From NCBI GenBank assembly GCA_947568835.1, contig OX387609.1, forward strand, positions 315,001-379,000: 64,000 nucleotides of DNA, read 5' to 3'. The notes under the pieces are model-generated. The model was not told the origin of the DNA. It did no database searches and was given only the letters and a program-made list of their open reading frames with translations. The position numbers and the translations under genes are program-made. This stretch comes from Protonemura montana. Taxonomy: Eukaryota > Arthropoda > Insecta > Plecoptera > Nemouridae. Shown piece by piece: positions 28,831 through 54,417 of this stretch (its first letter is position 1; each line of letters opens with the position of its first letter).

Positions 28831-28844
28831 GTATGTGCCACTTA

Positions 28845-30232: not shown

Positions 30233-30425
30233 GGGATCATGAAGTAGTTATTGCTAGCATTGCACTGCTTCATTGACATTGTAAAATGCGGTGATAAAGT
30301 GCAGAGCTGGCAAACAGAACTATTTTCTCTTGGACTCGAGAACTTGGATAAATAACTTGGATAAAGCTTGCGCATATGCTCCATTCTTGGTACATTCTTG
30401 TATGTGAAGGCTCGTGCCAACTTAC

Positions 30426-31404: not shown

Positions 31405-31966
31405 CTTTGTTGCCACGGCGACTGGCCAGGTACTGGGAGTCGAACCAGAACCCTCTTCTAAACTGCGTTCCATCTTTGTTGCCACGGCGACTGGCCAGGT
31501 ACTGGGAGTCGAACCAGAACCCTCTTCTAAACTGCGTTCCATCTTTGTTGCCACGGCGACTGGCCAGGTACTGGGAGTCGAACCAGAACCCTCTTCTAAA
31601 CTGCGTTCCATCTTTGTTGCCACGGCGACTGGCCAGGTACTGGGAGTCGAACCAGAACCCTCTTCTAAACTGCGTTCCATCTTTGTTGCCACGGCGACTG
31701 GCTAGGTACTGGGAGTCGAACCAGAACCCTCTTCTAAACTGCGTTCCATCTTTGTTGCCACGGCGACTGGCCAGGTACTGGGAGTCGAACCAGAACCCTC
31801 TTCTAAACTGCGTTCCATCTTTGTTGCCACGGCGACTGGCCAGGTACTGGGAGTCCAACCAGAACCCTCTTCTAAACTGCGTTCCATCTTTGTTGCCACG
31901 GCGACTGGCCAGGTACTGGGAGTCGAACCAGAACCCTCTTCTAAACTGCGTTCCATCTTTGTTGCC
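31405..31966. repeat. 69-bp tandem array, 8 copies plus a partial
   Basis: CTTTGTTGCCACGGCGACTG starts each unit at 31405 and every 69 bp to 31957. Copies differ by single bases only (for example GGCTAGG in unit 5 and GAGTCCAACC in unit 7). Seven units carry GGTTCGACTCC on the minus strand, a perfect match to the polymerase III box B consensus. Confidence 0.96.
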
Positions 31967-32066
31967 GAGATGATGATCAAGTTGGTAGCCATGGAGCTGA
32001 TGCAACAATTGGCCAGTCGAGTTGGTAGCATTGTTCACGTTGCAACTTGAAGACGCCGCTGTCAGA
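31405..32066 (-). CDS. Candidate exon containing eight in-phase 69-bp repeats
   Basis: Minus-strand acceptor GTCCGCAG at 32067 and donor AAAG/GTGAGC at 31404 bound 662 nt. The 69-bp unit equals 23 codons, so the frame is kept through all eight copies. Two frames are open: one repeats NKDGTQFRRGFWFDSQYLAS plus RRG, the other ATKMERSLEEGSGSTPSTWP plus VAV. The first frame's entry phase fits the exit phase of the 35735-35824 exon. The second has an ATG in this exon (MLPTRLANCC) and its exit phase fits the 30846-30957 exon. Which is used cannot be decided. The last unit ends exactly at the donor. No family recognised. Confidence 0.45.
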
Positions 32067-32454
32067 CTGCGGACTTTACGTTCGCAACAATGAAATCAAA
32101 AAAAAAAACTGTGTTATTGCCTGGCAGTTGATTATTAGACGCTGAAAGATGAAGGTGTCCGTCATTAGGTTCCTGTGACGTGGATTAAACATGGACATAA
32201 GTTAGTGATAGAGAAAAGCAAGTAGAAATAACATCAAACGCAATTAGTACAGTCAGGTACAAAATCAAAAACATAGTCGCGAACAGGTACATTTATAAAC
32301 ATTAACACAAACATTAACACAAACAGGAACATTTAAAGCCACAACATTTGTTACAATCTTACACTTGACAACCACAACAGTTCCTGATTCCAAACTCTCG
32401 TTCCCACCACGATTCCTCCAGTTCAGATCGTGCCAGCTATACAGGCCGGCAGCA
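32067..32454. other. Unassigned sequence
   Basis: Holds a short A run near 32099 and an AACATTAACACA repeat near 32295. No gene recognised; it would be intronic if the minus-strand exon chain is real. Confidence 0.4.
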
Positions 32455-32684
32455 TAAACGCAGTAAAAACGCAGTAAAATCGCATCAAAAACGCAGAATA
32501 AACGCAGAATAAACGCAGAATAAACGCAGAATAAACGCAGAATAAACGCAGAATAAACGCAGAATAAACGCAGTAAAAACGCAGAATAAACGCAGAATAA
32601 ACGCAGAATAAACGCAGAATAAACGCAGAATAAACGCAGAATAAACGCAGAATAAACGCAGAATAAACGCAGTAAAAACGCAAG
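32455..32684. repeat. 11-bp AATAAACGCAG minisatellite, about 20 copies
   Basis: AATAAACGCAG repeats with occasional AGTAAAAACGC variants at both ends and near 32573. The 142-codon minus-strand frames of the FILRLFCVYSA type are products of the array. Confidence 0.95.
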
Positions 32685-32861
32685 ACTTATCACGGTACCG
32701 AAGCGAAATTGTAATGAACGCTGAGGAAAGAGGTCGTAGTATTAGCGCTTCGAGTGGAGTGTGCATCATGCGGTGCCCACATGCCATGCAGAAGATGAAG
32801 ACTCGTCGGCTCGTGGACCCGTTGGCTCGTGGATGACTGCTACCTGTAGATACCTGTTGCC
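32685..32861. other. Unassigned sequence between minisatellite and MITE
   Basis: A GTTGGCTCGTGGA duplication lies near 32815. Open frames exist on the minus strand, but no splice pair is convincing. Confidence 0.35.
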
Positions 32862-33032
32862 TAAAGCCTGAATTACACGGTTCAACTCTTCTTTCAATTC
32901 TTGAATTCAACACTTGAATTCAATAAAGATTGAACGAAAAATTGAAGAAAAAGATTGAATAAAAATTCAAAAAATTTCTTGAAAAAAATTCAAGAATTGA
33001 AAGAAGAGTTGAACCGTGTAATTCAGGCTTAA
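32862..33032. mobile_element. MITE with 43-bp perfect inverted arms and TAA target duplication
   Basis: The element (32865-33029, 165 bp) starts AGCCTGAATTACACGGTTC, and its right end is the exact reverse complement for 43 bp. The centre is A-rich and partly self-complementary. TAA flanks both sides (32862-32864 and 33030-33032), the 3-bp TWA type of duplication known for PIF/Harbinger elements. There is no coding sequence. The perfect arms suggest a young insertion. Confidence 0.88.
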
Positions 33033-33127
33033 CTGGTTGTGTTTGTGTGAGGCCTTGAAGCGCTAACCCAAGACCACTTAGCTGATGTTGAACGCAAACA
33101 TCCCGGCCGGCCGAGGTAACAGATTAC

Positions 33128-33234
33128 GCGCCCGTGTCCCGATTCCGATGACGACGAGAACCGCGGGCGAGTCTCGGCGTCGAAGCCTCGGCGTCGAAGT
33201 CTCGGCGTCGAAGTAGACTCAATCTTGGCGGGGC
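33128..33234 (-). CDS. Weak candidate exon, Arg/Ser-rich
   Basis: Minus-strand acceptor TTCGTTGCAG, then an open frame PAKIESTSTPRLRRRGFDAE, with three copies of a 12-bp TCGACGCCGAGR-type word, to a possible donor GTAATC. Two frames are open and neither phase fits the better candidate exons nearby. Could be a repeat-rich intron. Confidence 0.22.
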
Positions 33235-33370
33235 CTGCAACGAACAGAGATATACTCGAATCAATAACCAGCTTCAGTTTTAATTTCATTGTTGAATTTT
33301 AAATTGATGCAATCGCTCGCAATTACTAGGGTAGTTTATTGTTAGGAACATAATTAACCCACCATAAATT

Positions 33371-33445
33371 GGTGGCTAGTCGGGGTCTCGAACCCGGTCC
33401 GTCCAGTCATGGTTTTGCTCAAACATCCAACTGAGCTAATAGGAC
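33371..33445 (-). repeat. tRNA-like SINE head or tRNA pseudogene
   Basis: On the minus strand: GTCCTATTAGCTCAGTTGG (box A TAGCTCAGTTGG) and, about 45 bases on, CCGGGTTCGAGACCCCG (box B and T-arm). The first and last seven bases cannot form an acceptor stem, so it is not a working tRNA gene. It is a different tRNA-derived head from the 52-bp arrays. Confidence 0.7.
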
Positions 33446-33649
33446 AAGAGCTTTTCGGGTGGATTTTAAAGCGTCGAATACGAATGACGGGTGAATGACC
33501 AAGAGGCCGTGCATGGTCACAGTCACTCTGATTCTATCCACATCCATTCAACCTCGGTGACTCAATGCTTGCGATGGGCAAAGTATTTTTTTATTAAGAA
33601 CACAAATACCCTCTAAAATATAGATGATTCAACGAGGACTGGAATCTCG

Positions 33650-34272
33650 TTCTCCACCTGTCACGAGTATTGCTCTAACCAATTGAACTACTTGGACCCC
33701 GATCTCCACCTGTCGCGGGTGTTGCTCTAACCAATTGAGCTACTTGGACCCCGATCTCCACCTGTCGCGGGTGTTGCTCTGACCAATTGAGCTACTTGGA
33801 CCCCGATCTCCACCTGTCGCGGGTGTTGCTCTAACCAATTGAACTACTTGGACCCCGATCTCCACCTAGGTCGCGGGTGTTGCTCTAACCAATTGAGCTA
33901 CTTGGACCCCGATCTCCACCTGTCGCGGGTGTTGCTCTAACCAATTGAGCTACTTGGACCCCGATCTCCACCTGTCGCGGGTGTTGCTCTAACCAATTGA
34001 GCTACTTGAACCCCGATATCCACCTGTCACGGGTGTTGCTCTAACCAATTGAGCTACTTGGACCCCGATCTCCACCTGTCGCGGGTGTTGCTCTAACCAA
34101 TTGAACTACTTGGACCCCGATCTCTACCTGTCGCGGGTGTTGCTCTAACCAATTGAGCTACTTGGACCCCGATCTCCACCTGTCGCGGGTGTTGCTCTAG
34201 CCAATTGAGCTACTTGGACCCCGATCTCCACCTGTCGCGGGTGTTGCTCTACCCAATTGAGCTACTTGAACA
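33650..34272 (-). repeat. 52-bp array of tRNA-SINE promoter heads, minus orientation, about 12 copies
   Basis: Read on the minus strand each unit is GTCCAAGTAGCTCAATTGGT, TAGAGCAACACCCGCGACAG and GTGGAGATCGGG. The first part holds a perfect box A (TAGCTCAATTGG). Box B is degenerate because the unit ends where the T-arm would begin and restarts at GTCCAAG. One unit near 33868 has a 4-bp insertion. Flanks show no complete SINE tail. Confidence 0.95.
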
Positions 34273-35146
34273 GGAGACTTACTTTGGAGAGGATTTTAGT
34301 GAATTTAATGAGAACGACGAATCTTCAAGGACCAAGATCACCAATTTCTGAAAGGTTTTTAGTGTTTCTAACAATAAAACATATGCAATCGTGAAATGTT
34401 GTTCGGCAATATGAAAGGAGAAAACACAATTTAAATTTTGTCAAATTCAGTGGTCGATTGGGGCAGCCCCAGGAATTGAAATGTGACTAAATCATGACAA
34501 AAAAGCACGCTGGGTCTCGGACTACCTCAACGATACAAACAAGGAGGAGACTGGCAAAGTACTGGAGAGCAAGGCAACAGGTGATGAAGGATGATGGAAT
34601 CTCAATTCATGGAACGAGAGTTCTCAATTGAAAAAAACCTTTCCAAAAATCGCGTCCAAGTCTTGGCTTTTAGGTGCTGTTTCCTTACGATGGTAAAAGA
34701 TACAAGGTCGTGTGTTCAATTGAAATAAGAAATCAAATCTGTTGAAACAGATAGTAAGCCCGGGATGATGCTTAAGGTTTGGCATTACGTGACGAATTGT
34801 TGTTTTTTAAAACCAAGCATCGAAACAAACTGAACGTTTGCACTCTCAAAAACAAGTAACTTGGGGAAAAACTTCACGGCAAGGGAGGGAAGTTCTTTAT
34901 GAAGCAAAAAAATGCTTTTTTCTTATTAGGAACTCTATAGCCGTCTCAAAATTGATGCAAGTTAAATAATATTTTAACTAAATAAAACGCGTCCAACGTC
35001 AAATTGAAGTTACTCGAGTTTGACAGGTTGTGACGTGATATAGCGTCACTGGAATCAGAGTGACTGCGAGTATTCACAGCCTCTTGGTTCTACTCCTTGG
35101 AGATCCGTCATTCTCATCAAATACACTAAAATCATCTCAAAAAGCC
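34273..35146. other. Spacer between the two opposed tRNA-head arrays
   Basis: About 870 bp without a gene. CGTCTCAAAATTGATGC near 34944 is a piece of the tRNA-SINE body. A GGAATCAGAGTGACT stretch near 35050 is the inverse of one near 33528. Confidence 0.5.
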
Positions 35147-35620
35147 AGTGTCCAAGTAGCTCAATTGGTTAGAGCAACACCCGTGACAGGTGGAGATCGG
35201 GGTCCAAGTAGCTCAATTGGTTAGAGCAACACCCGCGACAGGTGGAGATCGGGGTTCAAGTAGCTCAATTGGTTAGAGCAACACCCGCGACAGGTGGAGA
35301 TCGGGGTCCAAGTAGCTCAATTGGTTAGAGCAACACCCGCGACAGGTGGAGATCGGGGTCCAAGTAGCTCAATTGGTTAGAGCAACACCCGCGACAGGTG
35401 GAGATCGGGGTCCAAGTAGCTCAATTGGTTAGAGCAACACCCGCGACAGGTGGAGATCGGGGTCCAAGTAGCTCAATTGGTTAGATCAACACCCGTGACA
35501 GGTGGAGATCGGGGTCCAAGTAGCTCAATTGGTCAGAGCAACACCCGCGACAGGTGGAGATCGGGGTTCAAGTAGCTCAATTGGTTAGAGCAACACCCGC
35601 GACAGGTGGAGATCGGATTG
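35147..35620 (+). repeat. 52-bp array of tRNA-SINE promoter heads, plus orientation, 9 copies
   Basis: Same unit as 33650-34272 in opposite orientation, each copy with box A TAGCTCAATTGG. Variants include GGGGTTCAAG (closer to a real box B) at three junctions. Together the two arrays are complementary over about 470 bp. Confidence 0.95.
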
Positions 35621-35734
35621 AAACGCAGGTAACCAGAAATTAAATAAACTAGGCAACACGCGAGGGTTATAAAACCAATGTTTGTAGCAGGTTTTGTGAA
35701 ATGAAGAGGAATGACAAAGCATTGAAAGACTCAC

Positions 35735-35824
35735 CCAAACAATGAAGCGACGACTCCATCTTGTCTTTCATGGGCGGTCAATGTTCGTCCATGTTGCTGC
35801 TCTTGGGTTGAAGGCGTCCCATGT
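35735..35824 (-). CDS. Candidate internal exon, unrecognised protein
   Basis: Minus-strand acceptor TCTGTTTTTCAG and donor TTTGG/GTGAGT are both strong. Only one frame is open across the 90 nt: HGTPSTQEQQHGRTLTAHER and then QDGVVASLF. It ends two bases into a codon, which fits the one-base start of the first frame of the 31405-32066 exon. Gln/Thr/His-rich composition suggests a linker region. No family recognised. Confidence 0.42.
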
Positions 35825-37302
35825 CTGAAAAACAGACGCCATTATTAGACAATTAAACACATTCTAACCACGACTCCTCGTTGCCTGCAACAAGTGCAAT
35901 TGTACGCCATTCGTTCAGCAAAGCTACAACAGCGTTTTGAAGTTAATTGCAAAAATAATGTCAAAATGAAGTGGATATTGAAATAAACGATAGCAGTAAA
36001 TCTAATAATGATTGTAATAGCGCCTCTGATATTGCATCCCCGTATTTTCTCTGCTGTTAAAGTTGAAGCCAAATAGATTATTTATAATTAAAAATGCTGG
36101 GTTAAATGTCCTCGGGTGGATTCTAATTCATACTAATAACATTAATGTACACGATGTGGCGACCGAGAGTCGAGCTGCGACGATTGAATTATTTAGTTGA
36201 ATTGTAAAAAACGTAAAATGTCAAGTTACCGAAATAATTTGAGAGACATTTCGAGTCAACAGCAAGCAAGTTGATCTTCCACAGAGTTGTCTTGGCCAAG
36301 AGACGAGAAGACAGCACAACGTTCTCGTCGGAGAGTTCAGAAGCGAATGCCCGAGCTCCGCTAAAAACAGCCAGTAAACGGTTGGTGCGTGTTGGCGGGA
36401 AGTGAACTACCTGCTAATTGAACGACGCCACCTGGCTGCATGCAGTGGTACTTAGCCGAACTGCTTGGAAAATATGAACACATTCAAGAGAAAACATATT
36501 CCTCGGCACAAATTTTTCTTGCACTTACGAAACAAATTGATTTACCGTACAATTTCACAAAATAAATATAGTTTGGTAAATATATGTGTACCCTAGCTAC
36601 TTCCCCAGTTGCATGCATAGATGGATAGCTCGCTAGGTACATAAATGATGGCGTTTTAATAGCAGTGTTTTATGCAGTTGATCTTTATAATTACAAGAGC
36701 ATAGCGCTAGATTTTATTAGAATCGTAGTGTTTAATGTCATTGTCAACGGTCTTTAAAATTTACAAAAACTGCGTCAAATCTCCTAAAAATCCGTCAATT
36801 AAAGATAAAAATATGAAAATTAGGAATTCCATTTCTCAAAATACTTTTGGTAGCTCTGAAAAAGGCTCGAAGCCTAAGATAAGTGAATATTTGTTGAGTT
36901 TTCTTGCTCACTTTCCTAATCTAGTGCATTTATTTGATCGTGTAGCATTTTGTTAGTTTGCATAAAACTTTGATACCGACGGCACACATATCTAATTGAG
37001 TGGTGATTAATATACATCGACAAAAAGTCTACCTAAACGAGGCAGTTATTTTCTATAAATAGCTGAACAACGTTTAATGCGTACCCCAACTATTACCTAA
37101 TCACATACCTGTCCTTTGTGTGGTAAAAATTCGCTGAGAAATATGTGACCCTCTCCGCAGAGAGGTATGCCAATATGTCAAATGTGATTGAAAGCGGTCA
37201 AAGTTATTTAAAGCTCAATTCGTCATTTGATCGTGTATCTGCAGTGTACAGGACTTTAGCTCGTCGAAAGATAAAACCAAGAAAGACAAACAAAATGTGA
37301 AA
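35825..37302. other. Unassigned AT-rich sequence
   Basis: No recognisable exon or repeat. Frames at 35845-36072 (minus) and 36735-36956 (plus, Lys/Ser-rich) have no supporting signals. Confidence 0.4.
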
Positions 37303-37929
37303 AGGGTGACCATCATACACATGACCAGTTCTGTTTGGGAGAGAGGTTGGAGAGATGAAAGTTAAGCAACACTGCGCTGGGTCAGGTATTGGATGGGTGA
37401 CCATCATACACATGACCAGTTCTGTTCGGGAGAGAGGTTGGAGAGATGAAAGTTAAGCAACACTGCGCTGGGTCAGGTATTGGATGGGTTACCATCATAC
37501 AAATGACCAGTTCTGTTGGGGAGAGAGGTTGGAGGGATGAAAGTTAAGCAACACTGCGCTGGGTCAGGTATTGGATGGGTTACCATCATACACATGACCA
37601 GTTCTGTTGGGGAGAGAGGTTGGAGAGATGAAAGTTAAGCAACACTGCGCTGGGTCAGGTATTGGATGGGTTACCATCATACACATGACCAGTTCTGTTG
37701 GGGAGAGAGGTTGGAGAGATGAAAGTTAAGCAACACTGCGCTGGGTCAGGTATTGGATGGGTGACCATCATACACATGACCAGTTCTGGTCGGGAGAGAG
37801 GTTGGAGAGATGAAAGTTAAGCAACACTGCGCTGGGTCAGGTATTGGATGGGTGACCATCATACACATGACCAGTTCTGTTCGGGAGAGAGGTTGGAGAG
37901 ATGAAAGTTAAGCAACACTGCGCTGGGTC

Positions 37930-40900
37930 AGGTATTGGATGGGTTACCATCATACACATGACCAGTTCTGTTCGGGAGAGAGGTTGGAGGGATGAAAGTT
38001 AAGCAACACTGCGCTGGGTCAGGTATTGGATGGGTTACCATCATACACATGACCAGTTCTGTTGGGGAGAGAGGTTGGAGAGATGAAAGTTAAGCAACAC
38101 TGCGCTGGGTCAGGTATTGGATGGGTGACCATCATACACATGACCAGTTCTGTTCGGGAGAGAGGTTGGAGAGATGAAAGTTAAGCAACACTGCGCTGGG
38201 TCAGGTATTGGATGGGTGACCATCATACACATGACCAGTTCTGTTCGGGAGAGAGGTTGGAGAGATGAAAGTTAAGCAACACTGCGCTGGGTCAGGTATT
38301 GGATGGGTTACCATCATACACATGACCAGTTCTGTTCGGGAGAGAGGTTGGAGAGATGAAAGTTAAGCAACACTGCGCTGGGTCAGGTATTGGATGGGTG
38401 ACCATCATACACATGACCAGTTCTGTTCGGGAGAGAGGTTGGAGAGATGAAAGTTAAGCAACACTGCGCTGGGTCAGGTATTGGATGGGTTACCATCATA
38501 CACATGACCAGTTCTGTTCGGGAGAGAGGTTGGAGGGATGAAAGTTAAGCAACACTGCGCTGGGTCAGGTATTGGATGGGTGACCATCATACACATGACC
38601 AGTTCTGTTCGGGAGAGAGGTTGGAGGGATGAAAGTTAAGCAACACTGCGCTGGGTCAGGTATTGGATGGGTGACCATCATACACATGACCAGTTCTGTT
38701 CGGGAGAAAGGTTGGAGGGATGGAAGTTAAGCAACACTGCGCTGAGTCAGGTATTGGATGGGTGACCATCATACACATGACCAGTTCTGTTCGAGAGAGA
38801 GGTTGGAGGGATGGAAGTTAAGCAACACTGCGCTGAGTCAGGTATTGGATGGGTGACCATCATACACATGACCAGTTCTGTTCGGGAGAGAGGTTGGAGG
38901 GATGAAAGTTAAGCAACACTGCACTGGGTCAGGTATTGGATGGGTGACCATCATACACATGACCAGTTCTCTTAGGGAGAGAGGTTGGAGGGATGAAAGT
39001 TAAGCAACACTGCGCTGGGTCAGGTATTGGATGGGTGACCATCATACCCATGACCAGTTCTGTTCGGGAGAGAGGTTGGAGGGATGAAAGTTAAGCAACA
39101 CTGCACTAGGTCAGGTATTGGATGGGTGACAATCATACACATGACCAGTTCTGTTGGGAGAGAGGTTGGAGGGATGAAAGTTAAGCAACACTGCGCTGGG
39201 TCAGGTATTGGATGGGTGACCTTCATACACATGACCAGTTCTGTTCGGGAGAGAGGTTGGAGGAATGAAAGTTAAGCAACACTGCACTGGGTCAGGTATT
39301 GGATGGGTGACCATCATATACATGACCAGTTCTGTTCGGGAGAGAGGTTGGAGGGATAAAAGTTAAGCAACACTGCACTGGGTCAGGTATTGGATGGGTG
39401 ACCATCATATACATGACCAGTTCTGTTCGGGAGAGAGGTTGGAGGGATGAAAGTTAAGCAACACTGCGCTGGGTCAGGTATTGGATGGGTTACCATCATA
39501 CACATGACCAGTTCTGTTGGGGAGAGAGGTTGGAGAGATGAAAGTTAAGCAACACTGCGCTGGGTCAGGTATTGGATGGGTTACCATCATACACATGACC
39601 AGTTCTGTTGGGGAGAGAGGTTGGAGGGATGAAAGTTAAGCAACACTGCGCTGGGTCAGGTATTGGATGGGTTACCATCATACACATGACCAGTTCTGTT
39701 GGGGAGAGAGGTTGGAGAGATGAAAGTTAAGCAACACTGCGCTGGGTCAGGTATTGGATGGGTTACCATCATACACATGACCAGTTCTGTTGGGGAGAGA
39801 GGTTGGAGAGATGAAAGTTAAGCAACACTGCGCTGGGTCAGGTATTGGATGGGTGACCATCATACACATGACCAGTTCTGTTCGGGAGAGAGGTTGGAGA
39901 GATGAAAGTTAAGCAACACTGCGCTGGGTCAGGTATTGGATGGGTGACCATCATACACATGACCAGTTCTGTTCGGGAGAGAGGTTGGAGAGATGAAAGT
40001 TAAGCAACACTGCGCTGGGTCAGGTATTGGATGGGTTACCATCATACACATGACCAGTTCTGTTCGGGAGAGAGGTTGGAGGGATGAAAGTTAAGCAACA
40101 CTGCGCTGGGTCAGGTATTGGATGGGTTACCATCATACACATGACCAGTTCTGTTGGGGAGAGAGGTTGGAGAGATGAAAGTTAAGCAACACTGCGCTGG
40201 GTCAGGTATTGGATGGGTGACCATCATACACATGACCAGTTCTGTTCGGGAGAGAGGTTGGAGAGATGAAAGTTAAGCAACACTGCGCTGGGTCAGGTAT
40301 TGGATGGGTGACCATCATACACATGACCAGTTCTGTTCGGGAGAGAGGTTGGAGAGATGAAAGTTAAGCAACACTGCGCTGGGTCAGGTATTGGATGGGT
40401 TACCATCATACACATGACCAGTTCTGTTCGGGAGAGAGGTTGGAGAGATGAAAGTTAAGCAACACTGCGCTGGGTCAGGTATTGGATGGGTGACCATCAT
40501 ACACATGACCAGTTCTGTTCGGGAGAGAGGTTGGAGAGATGAAAGTTAAGCAACACTGCGCTGGGTCAGGTATTGGATGGGTTACCATCATACACATGAC
40601 CAGTTCTGTTCGGGAGAGAGGTTGGAGGGATGAAAGTTAAGCAACACTGCGCTGGGTCAGGTATTGGATGGGTGACCATCATACACATGACCAGTTCTGT
40701 TCGGGAGAGAGGTTGGAGGGATGAAAGTTAAGCAACACTGCGCTGGGTCAGGTATTGGATGGGTGACCATCATACACATGACCAGTTCTGTTCGGGAGAA
40801 AGGTTGGAGGGATGGAAGTTAAGCAACACTGCGCTGAGTCAGGTATTGGATGGGTGACCATCATACACATGACCAGTTCTGTTCGAGAGAGAGGTTGGAG

Positions 40901-43900
40901 GGATGGAAGTTAAGCAACACTGCGCTGAGTCAGGTATTGGATGGGTGACCATCAGACACATGACCAGTTCTGTTCGGGAGAGAGGTTGGAGGGATGAAAG
41001 TTAAGCAACACTGCACTGGGTCAGGTATTGGATGGGTGACCATCATACACATGACCAGTTCTCTTAGGGAGAGAGGTTGGAGGGATGAAAGTTAAGCAAC
41101 ACTGCGCTGGGTCAGGTATTGGATGGGTGACCATCATACCCATGACCAGTTCTGTTCGGGAGAGAGGTTGGAGGGATGAAAGTTAAGCAACACTGCACTA
41201 GGTCAGGTATTGGATGGGTGACCATCATACACATGACCAGTTCTGTTGGGAGAGAGGTTGGAGGGATGAAAGTTAAGCAACACTGCGCTGGGTCAGGTAT
41301 TGGATGGGTGACCATCATACACATGACCAGTTCTGTTCGGGAGAGAGGTTGGAGGGATGAAAGTTAAGCAACACTGCACTGGGTCAGGTATTGGATGGGT
41401 GACCATCATATACATGACCAGTTCTGTTCGGGAGAGAGGTTGGAGGGATAAAAGTTAAGCAACACTGCACTGGGTCAGGTATTGGATGGGTGACCATCAT
41501 ATACATGACCAGTTCTGTTCGGGAGAGAGGTTGGAGGGATGAAAGTTAAGCAACACTGCACTGGGTCAGGTATTGGATGGGTGACCATCATACACATGAC
41601 CAGTACTGTTTGGGAGAGAGGTTGGAGGGATGAAAGTTAAGCAACACTGCACTGGGTCAGGTATTAGATGGGTGACCATCATACACATGACCAGTTCTGT
41701 TTGGGAGAGAGGTTGGAGGGATGAAAGTTAAGCAACACTGCACTGGGTCAGGTATTGGATGGGTGACCATCATACACATGACCACTTCTGTTCGGGAGAG
41801 AGGTTGGAGGGATGAAAGTTAAGCAACACTGCACTGGGTCAGGTATTGGATGGGTGACCATCATACACATGACCAGTTCTGTTTGGGAGAGAGGTTGGAG
41901 GGATGAAAGTTAAGCAACACTGCACTGGGTCAGGTATTGGATGGGTGACCATCATACACATGACCAGTTCTGTTTGGGAGAGAGGTTGGAGGGATGAAAG
42001 TTAAGCAACACTGCACTGGGTTAGGTATTGGATGGGTGACCATCATACACATGACCAGTTCTGTTCGGGAGAGAGGTTGGAGGGATGAAAGTTAAGCAAC
42101 ACTGCACTAGGTCAGGTATTGGATGGGTGACCATCATACACATGCCCAGTTCTGTTCGGGAGAGAGGTTGGAGGGATGAAAGTTAAGCAACACTGAACTG
42201 GGTCTGGTATTGGATGGGTGACCATCATACACATGACCAGTTCTGTTTGGGAGAGAGGTTGGAGGGATGAAAGTTAAGCAACACTGCGCTGGGTCAGGTA
42301 TTGGATGGGTTACCATCATACACATGACCAGTTCTGTTCGGGAGAGAGGTTGGAGGGATGAAAGTTAAGCAACACTGCGCTGGGTCAGGTATTGGATGGG
42401 TTACCATCATACACATGACCAGTTCTGTTGGGGAGAGAGGTTGGAGAGATGAAAGTTAAGCAACACTGCGCTGGGTCAGGTATTGGATGGGTGACCATCA
42501 TACACATGACCAGTTCTGTTCGGGAGAGAGGTTGGAGAGATGAAAGTTAAGCAACACTGCGCTGGGTCAGGTATTGGATGGGTGACCATCATACACATGA
42601 CCAGTTCTGTTCGGGAGAGAGGTTGGAGAGATGAAAGTTAAGCAACACTGCGCTGGGTCAGGTATTGGATGGGTTACCATCATACACATGACCAGTTCTG
42701 TTCGGGAGAGAGGTTGGAGAGATGAAAGTTAAGCAACACTGCGCTGGGTCAGGTATTGGATGGGTGACCATCATACACATGACCAGTTCTGTTCGGGAGA
42801 GAGGTTGGAGAGATGAAAGTTAAGCAACACTGCGCTGGGTCAGGTATTGGATGGGTTACCATCATACACATGACCAGTTCTGTTCGGGAGAGAGGTTGGA
42901 GGGATGAAAGTTAAGCAACACTGCGCTGGGTCAGGTATTGGATGGGTGACCATCATACACATGACCAGTTCTGTTCGGGAGAGAGGTTGGAGGGATGAAA
43001 GTTAAGCAACACTGCGCTGGGTCAGGTATTGGATGGGTGACCATCATACACATGACCAGTTCTGTTCGGGAGAAAGGTTGGAGGGATGGAAGTTAAGCAA
43101 CACTGCGCTGAGTCAGGTATTGGATGGGTGACCATCATACACATGACCAGTTCTGTTCGAGAGAGAGGTTGGAGGGATGGAAGTTAAGCAACACTGCGCT
43201 GAGTCAGGTATTGGATGGGTGACCATCATACACATGACCAGTTCTGTTCGGGAGAGAGGTTGGAGGGATGAAAGTTAAGCAACACTGCACTGGGTCAGGT
43301 ATTGGATGGGTGACCATCATACACATGACCAGTTCTCTTAGGGAGAGAGGTTGGAGGGATGAAAGTTAAGCAACACTGCGCTGGGTCAGGTATTGGATGG
43401 GTGACCATCATACCCATGACCAGTTCTGTTCGGGAGAGAGGTTGGAGGGATGAAAGTTAAGCAACACTGCACTAGGTCAGGTATTGGATGGGTGACAATC
43501 ATACACATGACCAGTTCTGTTGGGAGAGAGGTTGGAGGGATGAAAGTTAAGCAACACTGCGCTGGGTCAGGTATTGGATGGGTGACCTTCATACACATGA
43601 CCAGTTCTGTTCGGGAGAGAGGTTGGAGGGATGAAAGTTAAGCAACACTGCACTGGGTCAGGTATTGGATGGGTGACCATCATATACATGACCAGTTCTG
43701 TTCGGGAGAGAGGTTGGAGGGATAAAAGTTAAGCAACACTGCACTGGGTCAGGTATTGGATGGGTGACCATCATATACATGACCAGTTCTGTTCGGGAGA
43801 GAGGTTGGAGGGATGAAAGTTAAGCAACACTGCGCTGGGTCAGGTATTGGATGGGTTACCATCATACACATGACCAGTTCTGTTGGGGAGAGAGGTTGGA

Positions 43901-46662
43901 GAGATGAAAGTTAAGCAACACTGCGCTGGGTCAGGTATTGGATGGGTTACCATCATACACATGACCAGTTCTGTTGGGGAGAGAGGTTGGAGGGATGAAA
44001 GTTAAGCAACACTGCGCTGGGTCAGGTATTGGATGGGTTACCATCATACACATGACCAGTTCTGTTGGGGAGAGAGGTTGGAGAGATGAAAGTTAAGCAA
44101 CACTGCGCTGGGTCAGGTATTGGATGGGTTACCATCATACACATGACCAGTTCTGTTGGGGAGAGAGGTTGGAGAGATGAAAGTTAAGCAACACTGCGCT
44201 GGGTCAGGTATTGGATGGGTGACCATCATACACATGACCAGTTCTGTTCGGGAGAGAGGTTGGAGAGATGAAAGTTAAGCAACACTGCGCTGGGTCAGGT
44301 ATTGGATGGGTGACCATCATACACATGACCAGTTCTGTTCGGGAGAGAGGTTGGAGAGATGAAAGTTAAGCAACACTGCGCTGGGTCAGGTATTGGATGG
44401 GTTACCATCATACACATGACCAGTTCTGTTCGGGAGAGAGGTTGGAGGGATGAAAGTTAAGCAACACTGCGCTGGGTCAGGTATTGGATGGGTTACCATC
44501 ATACACATGACCAGTTCTGTTGGGGAGAGAGGTTGGAGAGATGAAAGTTAAGCAACACTGCGCTGGGTCAGGTATTGGATGGGTGACCATCATACACATG
44601 ACCAGTTCTGTTCGGGAGAGAGGTTGGAGAGATGAAAGTTAAGCAACACTGCGCTGGGTCAGGTATTGGATGGGTGACCATCATACACATGACCAGTTCT
44701 GTTCGGGAGAGAGGTTGGAGAGATGAAAGTTAAGCAACACTGCGCTGGGTCAGGTATTGGATGGGTTACCATCATACACATGACCAGTTCTGTTCGGGAG
44801 AGAGGTTGGAGAGATGAAAGTTAAGCAACACTGCGCTGGGTCAGGTATTGGATGGGTGACCATCATACACATGACCAGTTCTGTTCGGGAGAGAGGTTGG
44901 AGAGATGAAAGTTAAGCAACACTGCGCTGGGTCAGGTATTGGATGGGTTACCATCATACACATGACCAGTTCTGTTCGGGAGAGAGGTTGGAGGGATGAA
45001 AGTTAAGCAACACTGCGCTGGGTCAGGTATTGGATGGGTGACCATCATACACATGACCAGTTCTGTTCGGGAGAGAGGTTGGAGGGATGAAAGTTAAGCA
45101 ACACTGCGCTGGGTCAGGTATTGGATGGGTGACCATCATACACATGACCAGTTCTGTTCGGGAGAAAGGTTGGAGGGATGGAAGTTAAGCAACACTGCGC
45201 TGAGTCAGGTATTGGATGGGTGACCATCATACACATGACCAGTTCTGTTCGAGAGAGAGGTTGGAGGGATGGAAGTTAAGCAACACTGCGCTGAGTCAGG
45301 TATTGGATGGGTGACCATCATACACATGACCAGTTCTGTTCGGGAGAGAGGTTGGAGGGATGAAAGTTAAGCAACACTGCACTGGGTCAGGTATTGGATG
45401 GGTGACCATCATACACATGACCAGTTCTCTTAGGGAGAGAGGTTGGAGGGATGAAAGTTAAGCAACACTGCGCTGGGTCAGGTATTGGATGGGTGACCAT
45501 CATACCCATGACCAGTTCTGTTCGGGAGAGAGGTTGGAGGGATGAAAGTTAAGCAACACTGCACTAGGTCAGGTATTGGATGGGTGACCATCATACACAT
45601 GACCAGTTCTGTTGGGAGAGAGGTTGGAGGGATGAAAGTTAAGCAACACTGCGCTGGGTCAGGTATTGGATGGGTGACCATCATACACATGACCAGTTCT
45701 GTTCGGGAGAGAGGTTGGAGGGATGAAAGTTAAGCAACACTGCACTGGGTCAGGTATTGGATGGGTGACCATCATATACATGACCAGTTCTGTTCGGGAG
45801 AGAGGTTGGAGGGATAAAAGTTAAGCAACACTGCACTGGGTCAGGTATTGGATGGGTGACCATCATATACATGACCAGTTCTGTTCGGGAGAGAGGTTGG
45901 AGGGATGAAAGTTAAGCAACACTGCACTGGGTCAGGTATTGGATGGGTGACCATCATACACATGACCAGTACTGTTTGGGAGAGAGGTTGGAGGGATGAA
46001 AGTTAAGCAACACTGCACTGGGTCAGGTATTAGATGGGTGACCATCATACACATGACCAGTTCTGTTTGGGAGAGAGGTTGGAGGGATGAAAGTTAAGCA
46101 ACACTGCACTGGGTCAGGTATTGGATGGGTGACCATCATACACATGACCACTTCTGTTCGGGAGAGAGGTTGGAGGGATGAAAGTTAAGCAACACTGCAC
46201 TGGGTCAGGTATTGGATGGGTGACCATCATACACATGACCAGTTCTGTTTGGGAGAGAGGTTGGAGGGATGAAAGTTAAGCAACACTGCACTGGGTCAGG
46301 TATTGGATGGGTGACCATCATACACATGACCAGTTCTGTTTGGGAGAGAGGTTGGAGGGATGAAAGTTAAGCAACACTGCACTGGGTTAGGTATTGGATG
46401 GGTGACCATCATACACATGACCAGTTCTGTTCGGGAGAGAGGTTGGAGGGATGAAAGTTAAGCAACACTGCACTAGGTCAGGTATTGGATGGGTGACCAT
46501 CATACACATGCCCAGTTCTGTTCGGGAGAGAGGTTGGAGGGATGAAAGTTAAGCAACACTGAACTGGGTCTGGTATTGGATGGGTGACCATCATACACAT
46601 GACCAGTTCTGTTTGGGAGAGAGGTTGGAGGGATGAAAGTTAAGCAACACTGCGCTGGGTCA
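37930..46662 (+). repeat. 4,366-bp higher-order repeat of the 5S monomer array, two copies
   Basis: Marker monomers recur at exact distances. One marker is CATACCCATGACC at about 39,046, 41,138, 43,412 and 45,504: steps 2,092, 2,274 and 2,092. The combined period of 4,366 bp is about 48 monomers. The CATGCCCAG and AACTGGGTCTGG markers at about 42,140-42,205 and 46,507-46,570 show the same period. Copies are almost identical. Confidence 0.9.
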
Positions 46663-47229
46663 GGTATTGGATGGGTGACCATCATACACACGATCAGTTC
46701 TGTTTGGGAGAGAGGTTGGAGGGATGAAAGTTAAGCAACACTGCGCTGGGTCAGGTATTGGATGGGCGACCATCATACACATGACCAGTTCTGCTCGGGA
46801 GAGAGGTTGGAGGGATGAAAGTTAAGCAACACTGTGCTGGGTCAGGTATTGGATGGGTGACCATCATACACATGACCAGTTCTGTTCGGGAGAGAGGTTG
46901 GAGGGATGAAAGTTAAGCAACACTGCGCTGGGTCAGGTATTGGATGGAAGACCATCATACACATGACCAGTTCTGTTCGGGAGAGAGGTTGGAGGGATGA
47001 AAGTTAAGCAACACTGCGCTGGGTCAGGTATTGGATGGGTGACCATCATACACATGACCAGTTCTGTTCGGGAGAGAGGTTGGAGGGATGAAAGTTAAGC
47101 AACACTGCGCTGGGTCAGGTATTGAATGGGTGACCATCATACACATGCCCAGTTCTGTTCGGGAGAGAGGTTGGAGAGATGAAAGTTAAGCAACACTGAA
47201 CTGGGTCAGGTATTGGATGGGTGACCATC

Positions 47230-48360
47230 ATACACATGACCAGTTCTGTTCGGGAGAGAGGTTGGGGGGATGAAAGTTAAGCAACACTGCACTGGGTCAG
47301 GTATTGGATGGGTGACCATCACACACATGACCAGTTCTGTTCGGGAGAGAGGTTGGAGGGATGAAAGTTAAGCAACACTGCACTGGGTCAGGTATTGGAT
47401 GGGTGACCATCACACACATGACCAGTTCTGTTCGGGAGAGAGGTTGGAGGGATGAAAGTTAAGCAACACTGCGCTGGGTCAGGTATTGGATGGGTGACCA
47501 TCATACACATGACCAGTTCTGTTCGGGAGAGAGGTTGGAGGGATGAAAGTTAACCAACACTGGGCTGGGTCAGGTATTGGATTGGTGACCATCTTACACA
47601 TGACCAGTTCTGTTGGGAGAGAGGTTGGAGGGATGAAAGTTAAGCAACACTGCGCTGGGTCAGGTATTGGATGGGTGACTATCATACACATGACCAGTTC
47701 TGTTCGGGAGAGAGGTTGGAGGGATGAAAGTTAAGCAACACTGCACTGGGTCAGGTATTGGATGGGTGACCATCATACAAATGACCAGTTCTGCTCGGGA
47801 GAGAGGTTGGAGGGATGAAAGTTAAGCAACACTGCGCTGGGTCAGGTATTGGATGGGCGACCATCATACACATGACCAGTTCTGTTCGGGAGAGAGGTTG
47901 GGGGGATGAAAGTTAAGCAACACTGCACTGGGTCAGGTATTGGATGGGTGACCATCACACACATGACCAGTTCTGTTCGGGAGAGAGGTTGGAGGGATGA
48001 AAGTTAAGCAACACTGCACTGGGTCAGGTATTGGATGGGTGACCATCACACACATGACCAGTTCTGTTCGGGAGAGAGGTTGGAGGGATGAAAGTTAAGC
48101 AACACTGCGCTGGGTCAGGTATTGGATGGGTGACCATCATACACATGACCAGTTCTGTTCGGGAGAGAGGTTGGAGGGATGAAAGTTAACCAACACTGGG
48201 CTGGGTCAGGTATTGGATTGGTGACCATCTTACACATGACCAGTTCTGTTGGGAGAGAGGTTGGAGGGATGAAAGTTAAGCAACACTGCGCTGGGTCAGG
48301 TATTGGATGGGTGACTATCATACACATGACCAGTTCTGTTCGGGAGAGAGGTTGGAGGGA
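47230..48360 (+). repeat. 636-bp (7-monomer) duplication within the 5S monomer array
   Basis: GGTTGGGGGGATGAAAG occurs near 47,263 and 47,899, and the variant monomers AACCAACACTGGGCTGG and CCATCTTACACATG follow both times at the same spacing. Confidence 0.88.
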
Positions 48361-48842
48361 TGAAAGTTAAGCAACACTGCACTGGGTCAGGTATTGGATG
48401 GGCGACCATCATACACATGACCAGTTCTGTTCGGGAGAGAGGTTGGAGGGATGAAAGTTTAGCAACACTGTGCTGGGTCAGGTATTGGATGGGTGACCAT
48501 CATACACATGACCAGTTCTGTTCGGGAGAGAGGTTGGAGGGATGAAAGTTAGTTCAGCAACTTCACTCGCCTTGCTTATCAACCTCTCGACAGCATGGAT
48601 TTGTGGAGGAATCCTGTTGTTCGAGTTGTACCGTCCTTCGGAAGGGACGTTAAGCCGGTGGTCCCCTTGGTGCTCTTCGACAGGAGTAGGCTACGTGCCG
48701 GCACCGGGTTTCCCCTCCTCCCTTCTAATCTAGGTTAGGTTCATCATCATCCTCATCATCATCCACTCATTCACCGACGCCATTAGACCAGTGCCGCAGG
48801 GCCAGTTGTCAAAACAGTGCGTCGTTAAACACCACAAATAAT

Positions 48843-49186
48843 AAATAATCGAGTTGAGGAATTCCACGCAGCGAGCATGCGCAGTCAGGACTTGTGGCGA
48901 AGAACAATAACAAGAACAAAATGTAGAAATGTTACGATTTGGTATTTTTCGAAGCTATATTGGCTTTTAAACGGGGAAATACGATAGTTAGGCGAATGTC
49001 ACCGTCTACATCTTTCGATTGGTTTTTTCCAACAAATCGATTCGAAGAGGTTTCAAAGCTCTCCGACATACAGAAGCTATAGTTTTAAGATCGTGCTGTG
49101 ACGTCACGAAGTTCGTTCTTGTAATCCTTAGAGAGTCCATACAGCCGTCAATGAAGACGTCTGAGTGATGGCCATCACTTAGAATA
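48843..49186. other. Unassigned sequence
   Basis: Between the SINE tail and the first PLE. It contains a perfect TGACGTCA word near 49,100 (cAMP-response-element type) and GCATGCGCAG near 48,877. Promoter function is only a possibility. Confidence 0.4.
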
Positions 49187-51217
49187 AAGACCCCACAACA
49201 AAATTTAAGAAGAGATTAACAGAATGAGTAGAGAAAGTGCCAATAGAAGAAAAGTTAATCAGAGAATTAGTTCCAAAAGTTTATGGGTTACCAAAAATTC
49301 ACAAAATAGATTGGGAAAAGCAGAGGATAGTTGAGAAGAGATACAAGTGCTAATGCAACTAGTAATCAGTGTGATAGGTGCACCAGCACATGAAATAGCT
49401 AGAACCATAGGAAAGACCTTGAGAGAACTAGTGGTGAAGGCTAAATAATTTGCAAAGAATTCTCAAGACTTTTTATCAAAGGTAAAACAGGTACATTTGT
49501 AGAAGGAGATATGCTGGTTAGTTTAGATGTTGTTGGACTCTTTAGTAACATTCCATTTAACAAAACAATAAGAATTTTGAAGACAAATAATAGAAAGTTT
49601 AGGCTACGTTAATCAATTTGATAGAAGAATGTTTAAAGTGCAATTATTTCTTATGGGACGGTCATATTTATCAGCAGAAAGAAGGAATAGCAATGGAGTC
49701 AACTTTATCTCCAGCATTAGCAAATATCTTCATGGATAATCTAGAGACAATAGCGTTGAATAGTGCAGAACTCAAGTCCAGATGCTTCTTCAGATATGTA
49801 GATGACACTTTGTTGGTTTGGCAACATGAGAGAGAATATTTGAATACATTATTAGAACACATGAATAGACAGCATGATAGGATAAAATTCACTATGGAAG
49901 GTAGAAGAGAATAGATGTTCAGCTTTTCTTGATGTTTTGGTTATTAGAAAAGAAGATGGCTCATTAGGGCACAAAGTCTACAAAAATAAAACAAACACAA
50001 CCAGGGTTTTACACGCAGATTCATGTCATCATCCTCGGCAAGAACACGGGGTACTTAACACATTAGCGACAAGATCAGCGAGATTAACAGATGAGGAACA
50101 CTTCGAGGCAGAAAAAGAAACATTTAGGACAATTTTTCAACAGAATGATTATAAAACCAAAGAAATAAGAAGAGTACTTGAAAAAATGAACCGATTAAAA
50201 AATAAAGAAAGTAGGAAAGTCAATTCTGAGACAGTTGAAAAGGGAATTAGTGAAAACAGTTTAGATGAAATCAAATCCATCGCAGTTTTACCATATGTAC
50301 CTAAGATAGGAGAGAAAATTGAAAAAGTACTGTCAAAAAAGCAGATTTTTACAGCATTTAGGGCAGATAGAAAAATAAGTACAATGGTAAGACCAGTGAA
50401 GGATCAGATTCCATTAGAATGCAAAGGCATCTATGAGGCAAGTTGTGAGTGTGGAAAAGTTTACAAAGGAGAAACAGGTTGGAAAATTAGCACAAGAATC
50501 AAGGAACATGAAAGACACATAAGATTAGCAAAACAATCTTGCATTGTTGGGGAAAAACAAAGCCAGTTGAATCAATCAGCTTGTGCAGAACAGGGGAATG
50601 AGTTTCAACATCACATTGAAATAGACATGGTGAGGATTTTATGTCGAGATGATAGGAAATTCACTAGAAAAGTCAGAGAAGCAATAGAAATTAAAAAACA
50701 GCCCAATAACTTCAATAGAGATGATAGTTTTCAACTTGATAGAGCTTGGGGAACAATTTTACAACAGAATAATAGAATAGAGAATATCAGTGAGGAGACA
50801 GAAGAAATCAGCACAAAGAATCCAGAAGAAAATATTTGGACGAGGAGATTAAGGACTAAATGTAATGAATAAGGAAATTTTGATTGTATTACATAACGTT
50901 AGGACAACCTCGAAAAATTGGCGTTTTTTCCATAGACATAATTAGTTAGTTAAAAAACACCAATGTGTTCGAGTTCTTATTTCAGAAAATACACAATACA
51001 TTATTTTTTAAGTTATTGACCCTGATTATTTTATTTAGTTGCATTTAGGAAGCTTGAACTTGGTAATTGTTATAATTTTATGTGGTTCTTTTGTTATTGG
51101 AAAATTGTCAGGACTGCTCAAACCTCTGAAGAAGTAACTAGTATATGTTACGAAACGTTGGGAAATAAAGTAGCCCTTTACTTAGCATTCAAAACCCAGT
51201 TGAAATAGTTTTTCTAA
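49187..51217 (+). mobile_element. Penelope-like element, copy A (5'-truncated, broken)
   Basis: A PLE identified by its reverse transcriptase and GIY-YIG endonuclease. From left to right: VYGLPKIHKI (PLE RT signature) and DMLVSLDVVGLFSNIP (motif A). Then QQKEGIAMESTLSPALANIF (motif B) and FRYVDDTLLVW (motif C). A 311-codon frame at 49937-50872 covers the linker and the endonuclease (GIYEASCECGKVYKGETG, REAIEIKKQPNNFNRDD). The 3' end carries a hammerhead-like motif and stops at GTTTTTCTAAAA. The N-terminal part of the protein is missing and the coding region has several disruptions, so it is inactive. It continues directly into a 3-kb segment shared with copy B. Confidence 0.92.
51095..51158 (+). 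ncRNA. Hammerhead ribozyme-like motif, PLE copy A
   Basis: Same core as at 13951-14013: GTC, short stem I, CTGAAGA, GTAAC/GTTAC stem II with TAGTATAT loop, GAAAC. No change in the core compared with the fragment at 14 kb. Confidence 0.7.
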
Positions 51218-51558
51218 AAACGTTCCAATATTATTTCTTTTATTGTATTTATTTCTCTTACAAATGTGTATTTGCTGCACTGTGGTAAATTACATACATA
51301 ATAGGTACACATGGAATATTTATTTACAACTTAAGTACATAGACCAACAAATAATTATAATTATGCATACTTAAAAATCTAATATATAATTACAAATATA
51401 GGAACGCAAAATATAATTGGTCGAGTTTTATTTTCTAGCTCGGTGTAATGATTGATTGTAGAAAGTAACTCCCAAGTGTTATCCAAACATAATTATTGTT
51501 TGCCGTCTTAAACACACAGTGATTTACAACATTTTTGTAACATTCTTCTTACTAACAG

Positions 51559-51661
51559 AAAACTATGCGAACGAGCATCGAACCAGGGTCCAGCTACGTC
51601 CTGAAACTAGGCACGAGAGAGATATTTGTATGCTGCCGAACTGGCGGGGTAAAGGATGAAG
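51559..51661 (+). pseudogene. Exon-like segment in duplicated block (copy at 61,322-61,424)
   Basis: Acceptor CTTACTAACAG and donor AAG/GTAATA bound 103 nt with an open frame MRTSIEPGSSYVLKLGTR. Between the two copies most changes alter amino acids (E to T, V to A, C to G), so at least one copy is unconstrained. It could be a fossil exon or chance splice signals. Confidence 0.25.
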
Positions 51662-52907
51662 GTAATACAAATATTAATATCATCATGAATTACTTTGATC
51701 TCAATTACTTTAATTATTTTCTATATTTTATTGAACCTTTGCTTGTTGGTTATAAAACTGGGTGTAAATTAATTATTTTGTATGGTAATATTTATTAATG
51801 AGCCCTGATCGTGTTCAAGCTGAAATAGTTAACCTTTAGTCAACAGTGAAATAGTAAAATATCAACTACTATCGATGTCGTTGTACAATCATCGTTTGAC
51901 AAATAATATACATCATCATCTTTATATTTTCGAAGTTTACCGCGTGAATTGGATACGACATTTATTTTTTATCAGTTGGAAGCCCTGCAGAATAGCCTGG
52001 AAAGAGCTACCTTCACGCGGCATTGCAAGCGTGCTGGCTAGTTTTATTTAACTCCAATATTCTTCTAAATTACGGTACTTTGTCATTGAGAGTATTCCTG
52101 GACTGATTCTGCAAAGTTTCTCAGCCTATGAGATTGACTATTTTAAACTTGTTTGGGTAAGTCTCCTGACATTGTTGTTATTCAATCTAGTAGGGTTACG
52201 CCTAGGTTATGTCAGAGATAAAGGATAGCTTATGGCCTACATCGCCGTTTTACGTGTAGAAATAAATTCCTTGCCAGGCGATGGTGTCCTATAGCTTTCT
52301 GTAAGAATCGGAACCTTTGCTGCGATGCCGTTGAACAATCGGAGCATGGGTACCGGATCATCTAATTGAACGCTTAATTTCTCTTCACCAACCGTTGCGA
52401 TGCTTTCCATGTTTTAAGGGTGGGTTTGTTTTGCTTCTTGGATACCGCTGATGTCGATTGAAGTGCGAGCTAACGAGATCACAAGGTTGTTCACAATATT
52501 GCTGCCAAGAGACCTGAACTCCGTAATGGAGCAAGTCATCTTTATGACTGGCAATACTTGCGATTGCAATTCAGGCAATAGACTATGGAACTGCAATCCT
52601 CTATAGGTGACTCTTTATGCTATTCCTGACTATTCTGTCTGTAATTTCTGTCTGCTGAAGTTTTCAACTGCCTTCCTGGAAGACTTAATGTTGAATCGTG
52701 TTGCTGACATAGTTGCTGGCTGACAAGCTTCAGATTGCAGCTTCATCTGGGTGAACTGTTCATATTTTGCCCAATTGAAGCAATATTGATATATTTTGTA
52801 TACAATAATTTTTTATCCAGCTTTGTTTCCCTACTCTGGTTGGTGGTTATCCTATTGTTTTATGGGCACTGAGCCCAATACTAATATTGTTTCAATCATT
52901 TTTGCAG

Positions 52908-53002
52908 CACCAGTACTCAGTCAAACAGCTGGCATGAAACCTGGTTTGGAAAACCTACTCCAGACTGAGAATGAGTTCATAAAAAAACTCAAAAATGTTT
53001 AA
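52908..53002 (+). CDS. Candidate terminal exon in duplicated block (copy at 62,661-62,755)
   Basis: Acceptor ATCATTTTTGCAG, then a frame reading QTAGMKPGLENLLQTENEFI followed by KKLKNV and a stop. The two copies share the stop and most residues, with two replacements near the start and one silent change. Function unknown. Confidence 0.33.
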
Positions 53003-53661
53003 AATAAGCAAACATCCACGCAAACATCACCTCGAGAAGACTTCATCTAGTAGTCACTGTCTATATACTCAGACCCAATTTCTCTCTAAACATCTGTGGT
53101 GAGTCCTCTATAATTAACTCTATTTCAACTCTGTATTTATATTCAATTTAAATAACTCTAAACTATTTTCAATCTCTGTATTATCTCGGCAACACTGATG
53201 GAACCTAAAAAGAACCTAAAAAGTAGATGTTTGTCTACATTTTAGGTTCCTTGTCAAGACTGCAGTCAATTAAAATACCTTTTCACACAACCCCATCTAC
53301 CCACGACTGTGAACCACTTCACCAATCCATATATTTGTTTATTTTTAACTGTTTTTGTAATAGTTTCTTAACATGGTAGCATTTTAGATCTTAGAATATA
53401 TCTTTTAACTTCCTAAAACTATAAACATTCTTTATCACCTGTTTCCAATCACTTAAACCCATTCCACTCATAACTTCTATCTAAAATTCCAATCACTTTC
53501 CCAATTAGTCTTACCATTAGTCTCCCCATTAGCTTTTATTCATGTCCATTTTACTATATGTCTGCCAAATAAACAATTTTTTTATGTTTGATTGTTAGGC
53601 CTGGAATTTACTCAATGCAGTTTATGTTTAGGTATTAATTGGTTCTTTGTTTCTGTTCCAG

Positions 53662-53767
53662 CAAGCCCAGCTCAAGGATGGCTACTAGCACCAGCAACAC
53701 TGCATGCATTAGAGATTCAAGAACCACCAACTCACTTGCTACTGCTATCAATACAACTTAACACAAG
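53662..53767 (+). CDS. Candidate internal exon in duplicated block (copy at 63,416-63,521)
   Basis: Acceptor TTGTTTCTGTTCCAG is strong and the donor AAG/GTTAGT is good. The 106-nt exon has an open frame SPAQGWLLAPATLHALEIQE followed by PPTHLLLLSIQLNTR. The single base that differs between the two copies is silent in this frame. The protein is not recognised. Confidence 0.38.
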
Positions 53768-54417
53768 GTTAGTTGAAGTTCATACAATTGCTCTGATGAG
53801 AAACCAACACAAAGCTATCGATGTCTGAGTCATGAATTCTTTCTTCTAGATTGCTGTCAACGGCTGCTGGAGACCTGCTCTTGTGAAAGACCAACAACAG
53901 CGACTGTCCCCAAGGTTCCTTTAAAAAAGCATGTCCTGTCTACTGAAGGGGAGAAATTCAGAGCAATGCTAGATATCAATATTTTAACAATTGTCACTAT
54001 TGTTTACCTCAATTGAATAAGAATTTCAAGAGCACTCATTTTACAACTAATTCTAGACAAAGACAGTTTGACCTTAATTTAGTAAACAAATCTTTCTGTA
54101 TTTACCTATAAGAGTGCCTTTTCTAGATACTGCCTAAGAGAGTGCATGCCAGGCATGTTTGAACCAGCCTTTAGCCAGTTTTAACCAGACGATGAGCATG
54201 TCATGACATTTGCAAAGGGATTTTTGAAAAATGAACCAGATATAAGCCCTGCGACACATTTTTTTATCGCTAATTTTGTTAAATTTTCTGTTCTAGGCTA
54301 GGTTAGATTCATCATCATCCACTCATTCACTGACGCATTCACTCATTCTCCTTCAGAGTTGCCAGTCTGGCACAGTTGGCTATCCTGACTTGTCTTAATG
54401 TTTTCCTTATTTTGCAG

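Follow-up and report, generated by a model that had tools for sequence, protein, structure and literature searches.

Short interspersed nuclear elements (SINEs) of the SINE3 class, including HaSE3 and PxSE4/5, have a 5S rRNA-like head with box A, the intermediate element (IE), and box C, followed by a body and a 3' tail (PMC3272025, PMC8010984). Their type 1 promoter for RNA polymerase III (Pol III) is thought to depend on upstream sequences, and little or no activity would be expected of a copy made by retroposition, according to the view of Kapitonov and Jurka cited in PMC3272025. Here we analyzed a window of 64,000 nucleotides from Protonemura montana (Plecoptera, Nemouridae; assembly GCA_947568835.1, contig OX387609.1, positions 315,001 to 379,000 of the forward strand), which contains a SINE family of the same general layout in which the control region is reiterated as tandem 91-bp units, about 124 of them in the longest array (37304-48551; all coordinates refer to the window). 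Unlike these array-bearing copies, the 5S-derived SINEs in the 5S rows of PMC8010984 have consensus lengths of 294-389 bp, and the word "tandem" does not occur in the main text of PMC3272025 or PMC8010984.

Tandem repetition of a SINE segment is known from scaled reptiles. According to PMC10702118, the SINE-derived satellites (sSats) of snakes comprise as many as 320 and close to 950 units; a lizard locus exceeds 1,200. The snake unit is 67 nt long and includes box B, and in a minor gecko variant, found mostly at short loci, the unit matches the whole tRNA portion of the SINE. As in P. montana, a SINE segment stands in tandem and a usually longer terminal unit reaches the SINE terminus; alternating multi-unit patterns are described for some long loci. 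The reptile sSats are tRNA-related, whereas the family described here has a 5S-derived head, boxes A, IE, and C within the unit, and an array in all five bodies of the window. The original prediction, made from the letters of this stretch, knew of no comparable promoter amplification in any described SINE. Since arrays at reptile loci can exceed 1,200 units, about 124 units are no size record, and reiteration of a head has at least a partial precedent in the gecko unit. The apparent novelty is a SINE-derived array of 5S type in every body seen. Among the literature matches listed, none concerned a 5S-derived SINE whose control region is reiterated; these matches covered few subscription journals and are weak evidence of novelty; the German cockroach paper PMC9191728 describes one dimeric SINE family, and its term-searched passages contain no tandem 5S heads.

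Two further systems are comparable in architecture. The 5'-untranslated region of mouse L1 is a promoter made of tandem monomers, the number of which varies from copy to copy, and 5' truncation occurs within monomers, as in the SINE family considered here (PMC9022269). It differs in being a Pol II promoter of a long interspersed nuclear element (LINE), with a unit length near 210 bp, averages of 1.5-3.7 units per copy across subfamilies, and seven loci with more than 10; no sequence relation to the 91-bp unit is claimed. The frog satellite PcP190 likewise has a 5S-similar region (120 bp) in its unit, and PcP190 transcripts have been reported, but the unit is about 190 bp long and the abstract of PMC11675491 mentions neither a SINE body nor retrotransposition.

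Results

Tandem Repeats Finder detected at 37304-48551 (plus strand) a repeat with a period of 91 bp, 123.7 copies, 97% matches, and 0% indels. Our own segmentation divided this array into 125 pieces, including 123 whole units; six had small gaps. The unit corresponds to nucleotides 50-120 of 5S rRNA, a span that holds boxes A, IE, and C; about 20 nt of linker complete it. The 9-nt box A core AAGTTAAGC opens the unit and the 12-nt box C core GGATGGGTGACC lies further inside; the former is exact in 120 of the 123 whole units, the latter in 83, and both in 82. The predicted RNA fold of the unit is unremarkable (z=-1.19). At its 3' end the array passes into a SINE body and tail (48552-48849, plus strand), ending in AATAATAAATAA. 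Both flanks and the body are present around the array, which is genuine. The original prediction had placed about 124 tandem copies of a 5S-type Pol III promoter, followed by an ordinary SINE body and tail, inside one SINE. The copy number, the control elements, and the 3' body were all supported; the restriction to one SINE was not, since all five bodies of the window carry a tandem control region.

Only 40 distinct sequences occur among the 123 whole units, a homogenization not seen in the shorter arrays. Runs of units recur at lags of 23, 25, and 48 units, and the array directly displays a large tandem duplication, the two 48-unit blocks of which (units 8-55 at 37905-42270 and units 56-103 at 42271-46636, plus strand) differ at 2 positions in 4,366 bp. 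Based on these near-identical blocks and recurring runs, the 124-unit copy most likely expanded on site by segment duplication through unequal exchange, in the manner of satellites.

A lone internal monomer (39906-39996) aligned to the Rfam model RF00001 over positions 50-120 as a 5'-cut match with a score of 17.3 bits (E=0.12). The alignment keeps a single register, and its score is below the gathering value of 38 bits. No 5S match was found in an Rfam scan of 31000-48900 at E values up to 5, which we attribute to the absence of 5S nucleotides 1-49 from the units. For the head and first monomer of two sister copies that retain a head, described below, the score was 61.7 bits in the one at 14552 and 44.2 bits in the one at 19480; since both exceed the gathering score, the 5S homology of the family is sound. 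The monomer itself aligns to 5S beyond chance. In the best ungapped alignment of its consensus with the RF00001 consensus, 34 of 49 positions are identical (shuffle maximum 28, n=300), and the local score against a real 5S gene, that of genome contig L001, is 31 (shuffle maximum 30, n=2000). This contig, which contains U1, U2, a histone stem-loop, and one ordinary 5S, served as a yardstick. Within what we take to be the limits of the boxes, the consensus unit is identical to the RF00001 consensus at 10/15 positions of box A, 5/6 of IE, and 14/18 of box C, and to the L001 5S at 11/15, 4/6, and 15/18. An array of functional 5S rRNA genes was rejected, as the units begin at 5S nucleotide 50 instead of covering the full 120 nt and the 37304 array has no RF00001 match at the gathering score. 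An exact 25-mer of the unit had no match in viral contigs and one of the body had none in genome contigs. The tandem control-region pattern matched no viral contig and one genome contig, L001, where the second half of the match lies downstream of the single 5S and was read as chance.

A BLAST search of the window with 48552-48860 revealed five family bodies, each directly following a 91-bp array. The shorter arrays comprise about 11 units at 11829-12825 (minus strand), 6 units at 14600-15151 (plus), 7 units at 19523-20164 (plus), and about 10 units at 29142-30048 (minus). The copy at 14554-15447 (plus strand) consists of a 5S-like head, six units, a body, and a AATAATAA tail, and is flanked on both sides by a perfect 14-bp target-site duplication, CAAACGGTCTACAC (14540-14553 and 15448-15461), the score of which was matched by 1 in 1000 random flank pairs taken outside repeats. 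This structure suggests that the SINE moves. The copy at 19480-20580 (plus) has a 5S-like head, seven units, and a body with an extra 3' stretch; that at 11407-12831 (minus) retains about 6 nt of head upstream of box A and has 11 units and the extra 3' stretch; and that at 28842-30056 (minus) has about 10 units and little or no head before box A, its 5' limit being placed to within some 7 nt. There are also two fragments, one at 23851-23994 (plus; 23859-23994 by BLAST) with one whole unit and a partial second one that continues into a sequence resembling the 5S head in a different context, and one of about one unit at 2614-2704 (minus).

The five bodies are about 94%-99% alike, with 3 to 15 differences over 253 gap-free columns. 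They share one kind of junction with the array, GGATGAAAGTTAGTAC- or GTTC-AGCAAC, with two changes in the 29142 copy; it equals the unit start AAAGTTAAGCAAC plus four extra bases. With a 5S-homologous head carrying boxes A, IE, and C, the family can be assigned, as far as sequence allows, to the 5S-derived SINEs (SINE3 class). It also fits a SINE-derived satellite, in that the array unit is a SINE segment, the array end runs into the SINE, and the long array, unlike the short ones, is homogenized and has higher-order units. Pieces of body or tail of 28-68 bp recur at 21189, 23299, 26107, and 54291-54342, with no LINE end proven among them. The extra 3' sequence of two copies, about 150 bp beyond the usual tail (11407-11566 and 20421-20580), resembles a 3' transduction or a new tail subfamily. 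The 10-unit copy is flanked by two copies of one sequence, at 28164-28841 and 30055-30650 (252 bp at 96%; 306 aligned bp at 72%).

Units of the four short arrays are no more alike within arrays than between them, with 4.62 versus 4.37 differences (p=0.88), or 3.44 versus 3.62 without the most divergent array (p=0.16); this fits inherited arrays rather than growth from one unit per site. The copy with the target-site duplication has 2 private body changes, and its units are 4.4 differences apart on average. Pooled over copies, array substitutions (75/3099) exceed private body substitutions (12/1012; p=0.009), the excess being carried by the 11829 array (p=0.006) and less by those at 14600 (p=0.059) and 19523 (p=0.105). 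The non-CpG variant G22A occurs in all five arrays (p=0.0018 under a random model). The copies at 11407-12831 and 19480-20580 are 99.3% identical over 416 bp of body and extra 3' sequence, yet their arrays and 5' ends are unlike. Aligned in the register of the 3' end, the arrays of this pair have 35 differences in 637 bases, versus 3 in 416 outside (p=1e-5); other registers give 24-26, still above the outside level (p=0.002 for 24). The array thus changes faster than the body, by exchange or higher turnover. The within-array comparison, the pooled substitutions, and the sharing of variants together give moderate support to short arrays having been carried along by retrotransposition.

The 5' ends vary. 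The head extends 46 nt before box A in the 14554 copy, the longest, and 43 nt in the 19480 copy. In the 12831 and 30056 copies, which start some 6-7 nt upstream of box A, hardly any of the head is left, and the 37304 copy, starting inside a unit, has lost all of it; about 11, 10, and 124 units remain, respectively. Three pieces of the family (12831, 23851, and 30056) start about 6-8 nt before box A, with TCACCG, GATCACCG, and GTCCCCA, which looks non-random. The 5' end of the 37304 copy lies 55 nt before the next box A; the corresponding distance is 46 nt for the 14554 copy and 48 nt for the 5S of L001. Origin of this copy from a transcript started within the array was considered on these grounds and not counted, since with a 91-nt unit an offset as small as 7-9 nt would be expected about 1 time in 5. 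No run of at least four T residues was found in the 11,248-bp array or its body, and the first downstream is at 48945, a point that Pol III could reach, in principle, from any of the units.

Other tandem arrays occur in the window. A 52-bp tRNA-like unit forms two arrays, with about 12 copies at 33651-34268 (minus) and about 9 at 35150-35616 (plus), each having nine exact box-A-like TAGCTCAATTGG sites and a box-B-like stretch that runs into the next box A (GGTCCAAGT/GGTTCAAGT); 49 bp of their upstream flanks are 86% alike. A 69-bp array of eight units lies at 31405-31966 (minus), with the box-B-like GGTTCGACTCC exact in seven. Neither ARAGORN nor Rfam found a tRNA match for the tRNA-like arrays. 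Box A and box B patterns are in modest excess over the whole window: 33 box A sites against a shuffle mean of 21.8 (reached by 1 of 100 shuffles) and 16 box B sites against 10.8 (8 of 100). The 91-, 52-, and 69-bp arrays are apparently three unrelated Pol III-like tandem units within 64 kb. Two more arrays, of 28 bp x42 (2774-3941) and 47 bp x123 (5025-10803), show no Pol III boxes, and the region seems prone to tandem growth in general. The stretches 49182-54246 and 57574-64000 have 97% similar repeats in common (1,454 and 3,626 bp) and a reading frame that is presumably Penelope-like; no Pfam match was found for 49886-50872. An A-T-rich hairpin-like stretch at 32854-33040 looks by eye like a miniature inverted-repeat transposable element, and plant miRNA models of Rfam match it below their gathering scores.

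Discussion

The arrays are best explained, with a probability of roughly 0.6, by a SINE with a 5S-type tandem promoter array that was carried by retrotransposition and expanded locally at 37304. What is seen directly in the window is the 5S register of the unit, the array in each of the five bodies, one copy within a target-site duplication, and the higher-order duplication. The first duplication probably took place in a repeated stretch, AAAGTTA..AGCAAC, in which box A resembles the body junction. Short arrays of about 6-11 units would then have traveled with the retrotransposing SINE, being reshuffled by recombination, and the 37304 copy would subsequently have grown on site to about 124 units by unequal exchange, as satellites do.

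Several observations weigh against this explanation. Selection on the control region was not found: with 1.34 variants per non-CpG site, against 1.20 in the rest of the unit (p=0.71), it shows no overall excess conservation. Of its parts, only box A has a low value (0.53 versus 1.19 per site, p=0.023), and it was picked post hoc. Both box cores are exact in two of six units of the copy with the target-site duplication, and the 82 such units are all that keep them in the big array, where 41 of the 123 are altered in one core or the other. The lack of T runs weighs little, because the consensus unit itself has no such run and its absence is no sign of selection; besides, two other elements contain TTTT, the 14554 copy at 15274 and the 12831 copy within its array. 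No clear target-site duplication was found in the other four of the five copies. The comparison of array and private body substitutions, meant to reveal arrays older than their insertions, fails for the 28842 copy (array at 29142), where it points in the opposite direction (p=0.91), and is non-significant for the 14600 and 19523 arrays taken singly. Sharing of variants among arrays is overall not above chance (p=0.48), and was dropped as proof of inheritance.

A passive SINE-derived satellite is the strongest competitor, which we regard as possible but distinctly less probable. Single-unit insertions would later have grown site by site through slippage or unequal exchange, with no promoter function or selection, and the clear higher-order duplication of the 124-unit copy, the unexceptional conservation of the control region, and the array-prone surroundings, with the 28-bp and 47-bp arrays, are all in line with such growth; the reptile sSats are discussed in these terms in PMC10702118. 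Independent growth at each site is harder to reconcile with a single kind of unit and body junction in all five bodies, and with short-array units that are no closer to their neighbors than to units elsewhere. The copy with the perfect target-site duplication argues against it as well, its units having diverged despite a body with so few private changes.

An assembly artefact, in which the assembler would have produced or lengthened the long array or its 48-unit duplication, is unlikely: near-identical 4.37-kb blocks are a typical failure point of assemblers, but the blocks have a few private differences, the flanks and body are in place, and shorter arrays of the same unit stand at four other sites. 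The original prediction had suggested factor-sink and insulator roles, and also many start sites firing into one SINE RNA, all of which would be hypothetical. In mouse cells, 5S DNA is reported to be able to influence position within the nucleus (PMC3261910). Still, a functional cluster of TFIIIA/TFIIIC sites at 37304-48551, serving as a factor sink, insulator, or nucleolar-tethering element, is very improbable, for although both box cores are kept in the consensus unit and in two-thirds of the whole units, a single unit scores just 17.3 bits, the control region is not conserved above the rest, and frequent derived unit classes alter box C (G41T) or IE (G18A).

Returning to the SINE with a mobile tandem promoter, its likeliest use, if any, would be that of a modular promoter tolerating 5' truncation, which is conceivable rather than probable and is favored by analogy with the mouse L1 monomers (PMC9022269). 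Since the start site precedes the control region, a 5'-truncated copy still retains whole control regions. More generally, and tentatively, SINEs might travel with variable-number arrays of whole Pol III control regions, a strategy that the papers cited here do not describe. Daughter copies truncated at the 5' end would then still have a promoter, and a type 1 promoter would carry along an upstream context of its own; the 5S-type 91-bp family and the tRNA-like 52-bp and 69-bp families would then have converged on this organization, with runaway growth at one locus. If this is true, a mobile control-region array would be a way around the need for upstream signals, a Pol III parallel to the mouse L1 monomers. 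The family is also a clear case of a retrotransposon segment becoming a satellite, since a single 64 kb contains both short arrays that were apparently inherited and a long one that expanded locally.

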